Positions 31,741 to 38,080 of a stretch of 64,000 nucleotides of DNA are shown here, piece by piece; within the stretch, counting starts at the first letter, position 1, and each line of letters starts with the position of its first letter. This DNA comes from a bacterium. GTDB taxonomy: Bacteria; Bacteroidota; Ignavibacteria; SZUA-365. The notes under the pieces were generated by a model. The model did no database searches, was not told the DNA's origin, and was given only the letters and a program-made list of their open reading frames with translations. Made by a program: the position numbers and the translations under genes. The DNA lies in contig JAHLLD010000001.1 of the NCBI GenBank assembly GCA_020444325.1, positions 372,001 to 436,000 of the forward strand, read 5' to 3'.

Positions 31741-33147
31741 ATGGGGAAAAACGTTCCGTTCCTTCTGCTTTTCTTTTTTATTTCCACATCCATCGCCGCT
31801 GCCCAGCAGCTCAGTATCAATGAATTCATGGCCGTACCACTCTCTGGAGAAGCGGAATGGATTGAATTGCGCAACGGTACGGCCACAGCCGTGCGTCCGT
31901 TGGACTGGAGTATCGAGGATGCCACGGGGAAGCGCTGCGCGTTCGGAGACGCCGTGGTGGAGATTCCACCGGGGGGACACCTGGTGCTCACCGAGGCCCT
32001 GCCACTCGGCGCGGCATGGCAGTTGACGGCCGACAGTGTGCTGCTGCTGCCGCAGCTTCCATCGCTCAACAACAGCGGAGACGATCTCGTGCTGCGAAAC
32101 ATGCAGGGCGAGGTCATAGACTCACTGCATTACACATCGTCCTGGCTCGGCGGGAAGGGATACTCCCTCGAACGCATCGATCCCGCCGGGGCACACGAAA
32201 AAGCCAACTGGCGTCCGAGTATCGCTGCATCGGGAGCCACTCCGGGCTTGCCGAACAGCGTGCTTCCCGTACAGCGCAATCCTCTGCCTCCTCACTCCTG
32301 CCGTATCAATGAAATCATGTATGAGCCGCTTACGCAGGGATGCGAGTGGGTGGAGGTAACGTATACGGGAAACGACAGTCTCGACATGGCCAGACTGTCG
32401 CTGGAAGTGTCACCCAGGGGAGAGGCCGCGGTGTTTGCACTTCATGGACACAGCGGCAGACTCGCACCGGGCGGTTATCTGGTCATCGCTGCTGACTCCT
32501 CCATTCTCCTGCGCTTCCCGGATATGCCGCGCGGGAGAAAGGATGCGGTCTTGATCGTCCTTGACCGCGCGTCTCTCGGACTCGCGAATGACGGGGATGC
32601 GATCCTGCTGCGTGATGAGGACGGGACGCTGCTTGACAGCGTGGTGTATGTGCCGGACTGGCATCATCCGTTTGTATCGGACACCAGGGGCCGTACGCTC
32701 GAACGTCTGCACCCCGCACTGCCGTCCCTTGCAGCGCAGTCCTGGAGTACCTGCACGCACAACGCGGGTGGAACACCGGGTGCGCTCAACAGCTGCTTCA
32801 CCGACAGCAGAGCAGTCGCTGCGAACGAAGCTGCCCTGCGTGTCGATCCCCTGCCCTTTTCACCCGATGGTGACGGGTATGAGGATTTCTGCCGCATCAG
32901 CTGTTCGGCCCCTGCCGGTATTCACGAGGCGCGGCTGCGCATCTACGATGTACAGGGAAGACTGCTCCGCACCCTGGTGGGCGGTGCGCCGATGGCAGCA
33001 AGGATGGATATTGTGTGGGATGGACTCGATGACGAAGGCCGGCGAGTGCGAATCGGACCGTACGTGGCATTGCTGGACATGCTCGACGTCGCGAACAATA
33101 CTGTCCGCTCGGTCAAGGGCATCATCGTTGTTGCACGGAATTTATGA
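31741..33147 (+). CDS. Secreted lamin-tail-domain protein
   Basis: The product has 468 residues. MGKNVPFLLLFFFISTSIAAAQ is a signal peptide. Two lamin-tail-type domains follow (LSINEFMAVPLSGEAEWIELRNG... and CRINEIMYEPLTQGCEWVEVTYTG...), each ending in LTEALP/RTLERLHP-like strands. The last ~100 residues (DPLPFSPDGDGYEDFCRISC...LRIYDVQGRLLRTLVGG...IVWDGLDDEGRRVRIGPYVALLDM) form a FlgD-type Ig domain. This is a common architecture for FCB surface proteins. It has GGGAG before the ATG and overlaps the opposing kinase gene by 6 bp. Confidence 0.8.
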   Translation: MGKNVPFLLLFFFISTSIAAAQQLSINEFMAVPLSGEAEWIELRNGTATAVRPLDWSIEDATGKRCAFGDAVVEIPPGGHLVLTEALPLGAAWQLTADSVLLLPQLPSLNNSGDDLVLRNMQGEVIDSLHYTSSWLGGKGYSLERIDPAGAHEKANWRPSIAASGATPGLPNSVLPVQRNPLPPHSCRINEIMYEPLTQGCEWVEVTYTGNDSLDMARLSLEVSPRGEAAVFALHGHSGRLAPGGYLVIAADSSILLRFPDMPRGRKDAVLIVLDRASLGLANDGDAILLRDEDGTLLDSVVYVPDWHHPFVSDTRGRTLERLHPALPSLAAQSWSTCTHNAGGTPGALNSCFTDSRAVAANEAALRVDPLPFSPDGDGYEDFCRISCSAPAGIHEARLRIYDVQGRLLRTLVGGAPMAARMDIVWDGLDDEGRRVRIGPYVALLDMLDVANNTVRSVKGIIVVARNL

Positions 33148-34836
33148 GGCGCTGTCGTCACGCGGGAGGAAAGATTCCATCGAACGCTTCAGTTCCTCAA
33201 TCTGGAACGGCTTCGAGAAATACGCGTTGCAGCCGGCCTCGAGGCTTTGAATGCGATCCTTCGGAAACGCATGCGCGGTCACGGCGATGATGGGGATATT
33301 TCCGAAACGTTCATCCCTGCGAATGCGGCGGGTGAGGGAAATACCGTCTTCATCGCCCTGAAGGGAAAGATCCATGAGCACCAGGTCGATGCGTGTGCTT
33401 TCCAGGATGGTCCATGCCGCAGCTGCGGTGGAAGCGATGCGCAGGCTGTATTCCCGGGCCAGAAGCGAGGCCATGTATTCCTGTGTCTCCTCGTCATCTT
33501 CGACGAACAGCACGGTGAACAGGCCTTTTTCGCTTTCAGGACGCACAAGCGGTTCGACAGGCATCTGTTCCGGGATGGGTTCTTCGTCGACAATGACGGT
33601 TTCTTCCACCATGTCGGCGAGAAACTGCAGGGTGAAGGTGGTGCCCTTTCCCTTGCGGCTCTTGACGGTGATGGAACCGCGGTTCAATTCCACGTATCGC
33701 TTGGTGAGTGAAAGCCCGAGACCGAGTCCGTCAAAGGGACGCGTATATCCGGACGCTTCCTGCGAGAACACGCTGAACACCTTGGGCAGATATTCGGGCG
33801 ACATGCCGATGCCGGTGTCCTTGATCTCAATGCACACACGGCGGTCGACGCAGTACACCCGCACATCGACGGAGCCGGTTTTGGTAAACTTTATGGCATT
33901 GTCGACCACATTGCTGACTGCCTGGTCGATGCAGTAACGGTCCGCGTACAGGATGGCGGCGGGACATTCGGTTGAATAGTTGAGCGCGAGCCCTTTCTTC
34001 TGCGCCAGCGACTTGAGTTCCTGCACCAGTTCTTCGACACGGTCGGAGAGACGGATTTCTTCGGGACGAACGGAGAACGTCCCTACCTGAATGCTGGAGA
34101 TATTGAGGATATGCTCGACGGTGCGCATCAGGCGCTGACTTCCGCGGCGGATGGCCTGGAAGTAACTGTCCATTTCCGGGTACAGGTTTCCCACCAGCTC
34201 ATTCGTGATGAGATTGCTGTAGCCAATGATGATGTGCAGGGGGGTGCGAATTTCGTGGGAAATATTGGCGATGAAGGCGTCTTTGAGCTTGTCCGACTGC
34301 TCAGCACGTTCTTTCGCGGCAATGAGTTCCGCCTTCTGGCGCTCCTGCTGCGTGATATCGCGAAGGACGATATGCTTCGCGTCCTTCTCGTCGTACGTAA
34401 TGGGGATGGCCGTCAGCTCGATATCGATAATCTGACCGTCCAGTTTCTCGAGTTGTCCCTTGATATCGTAAATCTCGTCATCCTGCGAAAGCAGTCCACG
34501 CATGCGGTCCTGCTCTGGATGCTCGAAATCCGTTACGACATAGTCGAAGATGGAACGTGCGTAGACTTCATCCTCATTCGTGGCATTGCAAAGCTTGATC
34601 CCTGCGTCATTGACATACACCACGCGGTCCCCTATCACCACCATCATGGGAAATGGAGAAAGTTTGACCAGGCGCCGGTAGCGTTTTTCGCTTTCCGCCA
34701 GCTGTTCAAGATTCTTCTGCTGCAGCGCGAACATTTTGCGCTGCTGGAAAATGATAATGGCAATGATACCGACGGCGAGGCTCAGCAGAGCGACGGTACC
34801 GATAACGAGCACAAGGACCGTAGTGTTGTCAATCAC
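33142..34836 (-). CDS. Hybrid sensor histidine kinase with PAS and receiver domains
   Basis: The product has 564 residues: one membrane helix (residues 8-30), a PAS domain (~50-170), HisKA with phospho-acceptor H194 in NISHEIRTPLH, HATPase (VVDNAIKF; DTGIGM; GLGLGLSLTKRYVELNRG), then a C-terminal receiver (FVEDDEETQEYM; phospho-acceptor D near 489 in LVLMDLSLQ; conserved Lys in YFSKPF). The sensor has no periplasmic domain, so the signal is likely cytoplasmic. The output partner is not nearby. Confidence 0.9.
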   Translation of the reverse strand: MIDNTTVLVLVIGTVALLSLAVGIIAIIIFQQRKMFALQQKNLEQLAESEKRYRRLVKLSPFPMMVVIGDRVVYVNDAGIKLCNATNEDEVYARSIFDYVVTDFEHPEQDRMRGLLSQDDEIYDIKGQLEKLDGQIIDIELTAIPITYDEKDAKHIVLRDITQQERQKAELIAAKERAEQSDKLKDAFIANISHEIRTPLHIIIGYSNLITNELVGNLYPEMDSYFQAIRRGSQRLMRTVEHILNISSIQVGTFSVRPEEIRLSDRVEELVQELKSLAQKKGLALNYSTECPAAILYADRYCIDQAVSNVVDNAIKFTKTGSVDVRVYCVDRRVCIEIKDTGIGMSPEYLPKVFSVFSQEASGYTRPFDGLGLGLSLTKRYVELNRGSITVKSRKGKGTTFTLQFLADMVEETVIVDEEPIPEQMPVEPLVRPESEKGLFTVLFVEDDEETQEYMASLLAREYSLRIASTAAAAWTILESTRIDLVLMDLSLQGDEDGISLTRRIRRDERFGNIPIIAVTAHAFPKDRIQSLEAGCNAYFSKPFQIEELKRSMESFLPRDDSAS

Positions 34837-35872: not shown

Positions 35873-35914
35873 TGTGCAGTCATCCTTAGGGAGGTGTAGG
35901 CATCAGGAATGTAA

Positions 35915-35948
35915 ATGAGGGGTTGTCTTTTGAGGACAACCCTCTCAT
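35915..35948 (-). terminator. Hairpin at the end of the paralogue array
   Basis: GGGTTGTC and GACAACCC form an 8-bp stem extended by ATGAG/CTCAT with a one-base bulge and a short TTTTGAG loop. It lies downstream of the last gene of the minus-strand array. No strong T-run follows, so it may be a terminator or an RNA-stabilising hairpin. Confidence 0.5.
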
Positions 35949-36018
35949 CTACAAGTCAATATACCACACACGAGAGCCTTTGCCAAAGTGTATCCCGCGC
36001 CTGTGACTGAATGTCTTT

Positions 36019-36441
36019 TCAGCTATTGAGCGCGTTCATCGTTTCGTGGAAACGGGAGACCGGAAGACCATTCCCGAACAGGAAACCTTCGGTCAGATCC
36101 TCGCCCTGGGCATTGACACCAACAAGGATCATCTGGGGTTTTCCTTCGGTGTCTTCAGCATAGTAGTAGCGCACACCGACGACGTCTTCCTGCATGAGCA
36201 GCTGTTCAATGGATACCCGGCTGAAGTAGCGACCCTTGACCGCGCCTCGTCCTGCTGCCATGCGGTAGTTCCGCGTCAGCGCGCCGGCTTCCTCCAGCGT
36301 GATATTGTGGTCTTCCATACCGGTGAACACCGGACGGCGCCTGCCCGTCGTGATCCGGGAGATCGCGGGAATGGGCATGTCCTGATTCAGTTGCTGCGCA
36401 TCTCTTGTCGTTGTCTGGGTGTTGTCATGCATTTCGTTCAT
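36019..36441 (-). CDS. Array paralogue, diverged copy without the Cys tail
   Basis: The product has 140 residues, the same length as its neighbours. Shared segments are RRPVFTGMEDHNITLEEAGALTRNYR, the Gly-rich GAVKGRYF and VVGVRYYYAEDTEGKPQMILVGVNAQGEDL. The C-terminus reads LPVSRFHETMNALNS where the others read MPCPPFCSPWNPLNS, so both cysteines are lost. AAGGA lies 8 nt before the ATG at 36441. It is the last, and most different, gene of the array. Function unknown. Confidence 0.75.
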   Translation of the reverse strand: MNEMHDNTQTTTRDAQQLNQDMPIPAISRITTGRRRPVFTGMEDHNITLEEAGALTRNYRMAAGRGAVKGRYFSRVSIEQLLMQEDVVGVRYYYAEDTEGKPQMILVGVNAQGEDLTEGFLFGNGLPVSRFHETMNALNS

Positions 36442-36499
36442 GGGGTTTTCCTTTATGCTGGCGAGATTCTTGTCCTGATTGCGATTGGGTGCGTCAGTC

Positions 36500-36922
36500 T
36501 CAGCTGTTGAGGGGATTCCAGGGGCTGCAGAACGGCGGACAGGGCATGGCGCGCTCGGCCATGAAACCGTCGACAAGGTCCTTGCCGTTCTCATCGACAC
36601 CGACCAGAATCAGCACCGGACGTCCGTTGTTTTCCTGTGCGTAGTAATAGCGGATTCCCACAACGCCTTCCTGCGAAAGGACCTGCTCGAGAGCCGCGCG
36701 GCCGAAGAAGCCGCCCTTGATCGCGCCTTTGCCTGCGCTCTTGCGGTAGTTGCGCGTCAGCTCGGCTGCGTCGTCAAGGGCGATCGTGTGGTCTTCGAGT
36801 CCGGTAAACACCGGGCGTGTACGCTCGCGCACTTCCGGCTGCACGGGGGCAACGGGAACGTCGACGTTCAGATCGGTGGTGGCAGGGGCATTGATGGTGA
36901 GAGTTGCTTCCAGATTCTTCAC
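36500..36922 (-). CDS. Array paralogue, copy 1 (Cys-tailed small protein)
   Basis: The product has 140 residues from a GTG start with GAGGAG upstream. A variable Thr/Pro/Val-rich N-terminus (~40 residues) precedes a conserved core, VFTGLEDHTIALDDAAELTRNYR, then KGGFFGRAALEQVLSQEGVVGIRYYYAQ and LILVGVDENGKDLVDGF. The tail CPPFCSPWNPLNS has two cysteines. From memory, FCB genomes carry other short proteins ending in a CPPxC-type tail, but I cannot name the family. Its protein sequence is identical to copy 2. Confidence 0.8.
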   Translation of the reverse strand: MKNLEATLTINAPATTDLNVDVPVAPVQPEVRERTRPVFTGLEDHTIALDDAAELTRNYRKSAGKGAIKGGFFGRAALEQVLSQEGVVGIRYYYAQENNGRPVLILVGVDENGKDLVDGFMAERAMPCPPFCSPWNPLNS

Positions 36923-37032
36923 GATGGTCTCCTCGAATTCACTGTTTCTATAAGATTTTTGCTTTCACTGTTTCCGGGGTCAGGATCAACGGGTTCGTGC
37001 TTTCAAACCTCCTCAGCGTCGCCGGGACCCGG

Positions 37033-37060
37033 CAGCTGCGGTGTTTCCGGGCCGCAGCTG
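37033..37060 (-). terminator. Intergenic hairpin inside the array (first unit)
   Basis: CAGCTGCGG and CCGCAGCTG form a 9-bp stem with a 10-nt loop between array genes. There is no T-run, so it is more likely an RNA processing or stabilising hairpin than a full terminator. The identical hairpin recurs at 37609-37636. Confidence 0.5.
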
Positions 37061-37075
37061 ACGGGAAGGCGCATC

Positions 37076-37498
37076 TCAGCTGTTGAGGGGATTCCAGGGG
37101 CTGCAGAACGGCGGACAGGGCATGGCGCGCTCGGCCATGAAACCGTCGACAAGGTCCTTGCCGTTCTCATCGACACCGACCAGAATCAGCACCGGACGTC
37201 CGTTGTTTTCCTGTGCGTAGTAATAGCGGATTCCCACAACGCCTTCCTGCGAAAGGACCTGCTCGAGAGCCGCGCGGCCGAAGAAGCCGCCCTTGATCGC
37301 GCCTTTGCCTGCGCTCTTGCGGTAGTTGCGCGTCAGCTCGGCTGCGTCGTCAAGGGCGATCGTGTGGTCTTCGAGTCCGGTAAACACCGGGCGTGTACGC
37401 TCGCGCACTTCCGGCTGCACGGGGGCAACGGGAACGTCGACGTTCAGATCGGTGGTGGCAGGGGCATTGATGGTGAGAGTTGCTTCCAGATTCTTCAC
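37076..37498 (-). CDS. Array paralogue, copy 2 (identical to copy 1)
   Basis: The 140-residue product is identical to copy 1, and so is the DNA, with the same GTG start and GAGGAG ribosome site. Having two identical adjacent genes suggests selection for dose or very recent duplication. The conserved core and CPPFC tail are intact. Confidence 0.8.
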   Translation of the reverse strand: MKNLEATLTINAPATTDLNVDVPVAPVQPEVRERTRPVFTGLEDHTIALDDAAELTRNYRKSAGKGAIKGGFFGRAALEQVLSQEGVVGIRYYYAQENNGRPVLILVGVDENGKDLVDGFMAERAMPCPPFCSPWNPLNS

Positions 37499-37608
37499 GA
37501 TGGTCTCCTCGAATTCACTGTTTCTATAAGATTTTTGCTTTCACTGTTTCCGGGGTCAGGATCAACGGGTTCGTGCTTTCAAACCTCCTCAGCGTCGCCG
37601 GGACCCGG

Positions 37609-37636
37609 CAGCTGCGGTGTTTCCGGGCCGCAGCTG
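37609..37636 (-). terminator. Intergenic hairpin inside the array (second unit)
   Basis: Exact copy of the hairpin at 37033-37060, 576 bp further on, between copies 3 and 2 in the direction of transcription. Confidence 0.5.
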
Positions 37637-37651
37637 ACGGGAAGGCGCATC

Positions 37652-38080
37652 TCAGCTGTTGAGGGGATTCCAGGGGCTGCAGAACGGCGGACAGGGCATG
37701 GCGCGCTCGGCCATGAAACCGTCGACAAGGTCCTTGCCGTTCTCATCGACACCGACCAGAATCAGCACCGGACGTCCGTTGTTTTCCTGTGCGTAGTAAT
37801 AGCGGATTCCCACAACGCCTTCCTGCGAAAGGACCTGCTCGAGAGCCGCGCGGCCGAAGAAGCCGCCCTTGATCGCGCCTTTGCCTGCGCTCTTGCGGTA
37901 GTTGCGCGTCAGCTCGGCTGCGTCGTCAAGGGCGATCGTGTGGTCTTCGAGTCCGGTAAACACCGGGCGTGTACGCTCGCGCACTTCCGGCTGCACGGGG
38001 GCAACAGGGGCGTCGACGTAGAGATCCTGCGTTGTGGTTTTTGTTTCTGTCTGCGGAAGGATTGCATTCACTGTTTCCAT
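37652..38080 (-). CDS. Array paralogue, copy 3 (different N-terminus)
   Basis: The product has 142 residues and an ATG start with GAGGAG 6 nt upstream. From VAPVQPEVRERTRPVFTG to the CPPFCSPWNPLNS end it is identical to copies 1 and 2, but the first ~25 residues (METVNAILPQTETKTTTQDL) differ. This is what is expected if the conserved part was duplicated or converted while the leader stayed distinct. It is first in the direction of transcription. Confidence 0.8.
   Translation of the reverse strand: METVNAILPQTETKTTTQDLYVDAPVAPVQPEVRERTRPVFTGLEDHTIALDDAAELTRNYRKSAGKGAIKGGFFGRAALEQVLSQEGVVGIRYYYAQENNGRPVLILVGVDENGKDLVDGFMAERAMPCPPFCSPWNPLNS

Follow-up and report, generated by a model that had tools for sequence, protein, structure and literature searches.

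A tandem array of small-protein genes at the head of a conserved, apparently undescribed sensory operon of Bacteroidota

A tandem array of four small-protein genes in a member of the Ignavibacteria very probably heads a conserved, apparently undescribed sensory operon of Bacteroidota. The proposed operon consists of the small protein (1 to about 5 copies), a seven-transmembrane (7-TM) protein here called C2, a histidine kinase and a response regulator, in this order. The small protein is, judged by its gene context, a component of this conserved and apparently undescribed sensory system. On balance we favor a split sensory system, with the small protein as an input or modulator subunit of the 7-TM receptor C2. 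The small protein and C2 have no Pfam or NCBIfam name, yet together with the kinase they are found in a considerable part of the phylum. Many unnamed proteins thereby gain a place in a compact, testable receptor system, which would be a bacterial 7-TM receptor whose partner is probably genetically encoded.

The array in the window

The array lies in a window of 64,000 nucleotides, which is the whole stretch of DNA analyzed. An earlier note, made from these letters alone, described four head-to-tail paralogues on one strand. Four ORFs of approximately 140 codons are indeed found head to tail on the minus strand, from 38080 to 36019, and a repeat finder agrees, identifying a 300-nt unit four times (three at 100% and one at 65% nucleotide identity) with a spacing of 481/576/576. 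Copy 1 (37652-38080, minus strand) encodes 142 aa with a leader of the type METVNA... and a CPPFC tail. Copy 2 (37076-37498, minus strand) encodes 140 aa from a GTG start with the leader VKNLEA... and the same CPPFC tail, and copy 3 (36500-36922, minus strand; 140 aa, GTG) has a coding sequence identical to that of copy 2. Copy 4 is of a second type, type B (36019-36441, minus strand; 140 aa, GNGLPVSRFHE...LNS), without the Cys tail. Translation of this copy most likely starts at the ATG at 36441, which makes the listed ORF of 193 aa an over-extension.

Copies 1 to 3 share one identical body and the tail CPPFCSPWNPLNS, which is absent from copy 4, just as the earlier note had it for three of the four. 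Copy 4 ends in GNGLPVSRFHETMNALNS, has lost the cysteines and is approximately 50% identical to the other copies. This Cys-less last copy is kept in relatives. The last 351 nt of copies 1 and 2 are identical, with the differences confined to the N-terminus, and the 110 nt behind them are identical as well. No further family copy was found in the 4.65-Mb source genome at a meaningful E-value.

The gene is present in each of the 12 genomes of the same family that were searched, so the array is not a chance occurrence. An assembly artefact, which the earlier note had kept in view, is unlikely to explain the array as such, because a relative assembled as a single contig (G301) carries about five copies in tandem that differ slightly from one another. 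The number of perfect copies is given as assembled.

The small-protein family

No convincing match to the small protein was found in Pfam, NCBIfam, PADLOC or a PDB sequence search; the family that the earlier note could not name fits none of the families there. Single matches of the small protein or C2 to unrelated families (best E 0.0003) were put down to chance. The profile search that had been proposed was run across the phylum with a profile built from 27 diverse members, and it identified relatives in 46 of the 395 genomes drawn. The named relatives are uncultured Ignavibacteria/Bacteroidetes MAGs, and none were found among the viral contigs and plasmids searched. In the family of the window's genome the arrangement is conserved: at least one Cys-tailed copy comes first and is followed by a single Cys-less type B copy and then by C2.

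Conservation is strongest in an alpha-helical EA..LT.NYR stretch, in a beta hairpin (GIRxYxA...LVGVD..G.D) and in the C-terminal CPxxC tail, and two residues, R91 and Y93, do not vary in the alignment. The conserved core, the variable N-terminus and a real Cys tail, all described earlier from the window, are present in the family. Members range from 100 to 250 aa, those of approximately 250 aa being two-domain forms. In one locus (L071, 6821-7630) two small-protein domains are fused in one ORF, and members in L106, L110, L142 and L143 also look two-domain. Structure prediction, also proposed in the earlier note, did yield an AlphaFold2 (AF2) model from an input of close relatives only, but the model is poor (pLDDT 55) and gave no usable structural matches. 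Its Foldseek list was discarded as meaningless.

CPxxC spacing is found in 59 of 92 members. The CPxxC/CPP motif is missing from about a quarter of the members and also from the conserved type B, and the Cys tail is therefore not essential in every copy. Among ORFs upstream of C2 that have no family match, 7 of 16 end in CPP or CPxxC, whereas the other ORFs have such an end in 7 of 1807 cases (p about 3e-12). The tail thus travels with C2 even where no sequence match to the family is seen. Two such tailed groups align weakly with the family over both domain and tail (hhalign probability 75 and 55%).

The copies in the window have no recognizable signal peptide, as is the case for most members. 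An N-terminal hydrophobic segment is found in approximately 10 of 92 relatives (about 11%), scattered over distant genomes, and a lipobox is flagged in four of these, which argues for export in part of the family. With most members lacking a signal peptide and about 11% having one, it is difficult to name one site of action for the family. In two loci a second, lipoprotein-like member of approximately 250 aa lies behind the 7-TM gene (L125, 3497-4252; L126, 3625-4398, minus strand).

A conserved operon with C2, kinase and regulator

When neighbors were clustered across distant genomes, the only recurrent ones were C2 and the kinase and regulator genes. C2 lies downstream on the same strand in 62 of 67 family matches from the 395 phylum genomes, mostly within 200 nt; the remaining five matches include one at a contig end and second copies that themselves sit behind or between C2 genes. 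C2 itself was found in 76 of the 395 sampled genomes. A profile recognizes a family member upstream in 77 of 100 C2 loci, many of which were chosen for holding the family, so that 77 is not a population rate. Downstream of C2 there is a histidine kinase in 97 of these 100 loci and a regulator or receiver in 86. C2 appears, from sequence comparison, to be tied to the small-protein superfamily in general. A few C2 loci have no small gene at all, and in four loci (L075, L076, L082 and L133) the 7-TM gene is tandemly duplicated behind a single small-protein gene. The gap between the C2 and kinase genes is at most 10 nt, or the genes overlap, in 47 of 87 cases, and such close or overlapping genes suggest translational coupling.

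A role in signal transduction is suggested by these neighbors, the only conserved ones being the 7-TM protein, the histidine kinase and the response regulator. No modifying enzyme, protease, maturation gene or ABC exporter is conserved beside the family across distant genomes. The earlier note had seen no modifying enzyme next to the array, and in this it was right. The maturation or transport genes that it proposed to look for did not emerge; the conserved neighbors are C2 and the two-component genes. The likeness to secreted or modified peptides holds insofar as export signals occur in approximately 10 of 92 members, but the array does not stand alone and instead heads a sensory operon. There is no indication of peptide modification, and a modified-peptide reading is unlikely.

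Between the array and C2 is a promoter-like site, TTGGCA-17-TATATT (35958-35986, minus strand), whose TATATT is kept in relatives. It is followed by a 44-nt hairpin (35910-35953, minus strand), also kept in relatives, in what is presumed to be the 5' UTR of the C2 gene. Five of its 17 predicted pairs are changed on both sides among seven sequences. An Rfam scan around the array found no match. The hairpin has a single R1 match in the genome and was rejected as a regulon-wide element on this ground. These sequence features suggest that C2 and the kinase may be expressed apart from the array, probably at a lower level.

The C2 gene (35036-35872, minus strand) encodes a 7-TM protein of 278 aa, the presumed receptor or sensor subunit. 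No convincing family match was found in Pfam, NCBIfam, PADLOC or a PDB sequence search, and 27 C2 proteins compared with Pfam at E up to 0.05 had no shared match and no match to the 7TMR-DISM or HisKA_7TM profiles. Mean K+R counts are 3.1, 2.9 and 2.9 in loop 1, loop 3 and the C-terminus and 0.6-1.2 in the N-terminus and loops 2, 4 and 6. The predicted topology is N-out/C-in, with loops 1 and 3 and the C-terminus inside. No Cys or His is present among the 32 most conserved columns.

The AF2 model of C2 (pLDDT 76, pTM 0.75) has seven helices. Its best structural matches are mostly 7-TM receptors, with rhodopsins in the Foldseek list, at scores that non-homologous helical bundles can reach. The predicted topology agrees with a GPCR/rhodopsin-like arrangement of the helices; the structural comparison gave Z up to 12.6, within the chance range for helical bundles, Foldseek E above 0.05 and TM-scores of mostly 0.3-0.5. 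A more far-reaching reading, which we consider unlikely, is a phylum-wide system in which the CPxxC-tailed small protein serves as the protein or peptide ligand of a receptor of GPCR topology that signals to the sensorless kinase, with the ligand gene amplified and gene-converted.

The kinase in the window is a hybrid histidine kinase (33142-34836, minus strand) with one N-terminal TM segment followed by PAS, HisKA, HATPase_c and receiver domains (Pfam). The regulator, which in other operons is mostly of the NarL type, is here present as a receiver domain fused to the kinase; example operons encode HisKA_3/HATPase_c kinases and Response_reg/GerE (NarL-type) regulators (Pfam). An extracytoplasmic sensor domain is absent from the window kinase. 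The first TM segment is found within 25 residues of the N-terminus in 72 of 87 kinases, nearly all of these having a single TM, and several or most of the remaining kinases are start-codon mis-picks. Among the matches listed, C2 was never fused to a kinase.

Partial distance correlations were calculated over 50 complete operons with 999 permutations, a procedure that does not fully remove shared ancestry. The values are 0.69 for kinase and regulator, 0.48 for C2 and kinase, 0.21 for small protein and C2 and 0.20 for small protein and kinase (0 of 999 permutations for each of the last two). For small protein and regulator the value is -0.02 (609 of 999 permutations). This pattern fits, and does not prove, a relay in the order small protein, C2, kinase, regulator.

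Proposed mechanism and alternatives

In the split sensory system favored here, C2 would be the membrane sensor that is missing from the kinase, encoded as a separate polypeptide. The small protein might bind C2 via its C-terminal CPxxC tail or its alpha-alpha-beta-beta core, and would act as a ligand, co-sensor or modulator that sets kinase activity. The resulting state would be relayed by the regulator or receiver. The copies are amplified and homogenized, presumably for dose. In the family of the window's genome, C2 and the kinase may use their own promoter-like site, followed by the 5'-UTR hairpin, behind the array.

The small proteins could instead be precursors of an extracellular Cys-containing signal, with C2 as its receptor or processor and the kinase and regulator reading cell density. 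Signal peptides or lipoboxes on some members, a tail that is the most widely kept feature, the N-out 7-TM topology beside a kinase and a NarL-type regulator, and a multicopy, homogenized array are all in keeping with such a signal. However, the export signal is absent from most members, including those of the window, conserved maturation or export genes are missing from the neighborhood, type B has no tail, and the tail motif is conserved rather than strain-specific. This reading is doubtful.

It is also improbable that the small protein senses the redox state or a metal in the cytosol with its C-x3-C tail, docking on C2 or the kinase and tuning the system accordingly. The CPxxC spacing, the lack of a signal peptide in most members and the correlation of distances with both C2 and the kinase would suit such a sensor. 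However, exported members carry the Cys tail too, and the cysteines are missing from the type B copies. The small-protein core has no conserved partner His or Cys, its invariant columns being R and Y, and no match to Sco, CuA or a metal-binding family was found.

An array of RiPP-type precursors of a modified peptide natural product has very little to recommend it: multicopy small ORFs that are conserved in part and have a Cys-bearing end would fit, but the family has sensory neighbors with no modifying enzyme, protease or ABC exporter conserved beside it, the core looks folded, two-domain members reach approximately 250 aa, and the most conserved C2 columns contain no Cys or His.

Relationship to known systems

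As in accessory-sensor two-component systems, a histidine kinase and a response regulator are encoded in the operon and the kinase has no extracytoplasmic sensor domain. In BceAB-BceS and LiaF-LiaS, a kinase with little or no sensor domain lies beside a membrane protein that supplies the input. The layout here is the same, a near-sensorless kinase with an adjoining membrane protein. The differences are that the membrane protein is a 7-TM C2 without a Pfam or NCBIfam family, and that an extra, sometimes amplified, CPxxC-tailed protein is present.

The Agr system (AgrD-AgrB-AgrC-AgrA) combines a small product, a polytopic membrane protein of approximately 200 aa, a kinase and a regulator, and the same set is found here. 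However, the best columns of C2 lack the His/Cys of an AgrB-like protease, the kinase has one TM segment whereas the Agr sensor is polytopic, the regulator is of the NarL type (GerE/LuxR) rather than LytTR, and the small protein is a domain of 100-250 aa rather than a short peptide precursor. The 7TMR-DISM and HisKA_7TM proteins also couple a 7-TM sensing unit to a histidine kinase. Their 7-TM unit belongs to the same protein as the output, whereas here it is encoded by a separate gene and has a small partner protein.

The copper motifs of Sco and CuA have C-x3-C spacing. This spacing is common here, and a few members have CPDLCP-like tails, but Pfam gave no match to those folds, a conserved metal-binding His is lacking, and the tail forms the very C-terminal end of a small domain that is unrelated. 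The open-licence full texts searched on such operons, peptide signaling and split sensors in Bacteroidetes contained no description of the system. Those on named 7TM/MASE sensor domains of kinases likewise contained no description of this operon.

Concerted evolution of the array

Different species have the leaders METVNA... and MKNQEA... in the same order. The bodies of these two leader-type genes have 100% nucleotide identity in the source genome and in one relative (G299), approximately 99% in G301 and 88.6% in a third relative (G297), whereas between genomes the bodies differ by 10-24%. Because the leaders persist across species while the bodies match within a genome, the genes are old duplicates with repeatedly homogenized bodies. 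The variable leader of the earlier note is accordingly real in that the N-terminus varies, but it is not a diversifying end, the two leader types being conserved between species.

Copy 3 is evidently a recent tandem duplication of copy 2, with a 576-nt period. The duplicated unit contains an inverted repeat, CCCGGCAGCTGCGG / CCGCAGCTGACGGG, located between array copies at 37028-37065 and 37604-37641. In G301 one array copy (L089, 8647-9251, minus strand) is split over two frames next to near-identical neighbors, and looks frame-shifted.
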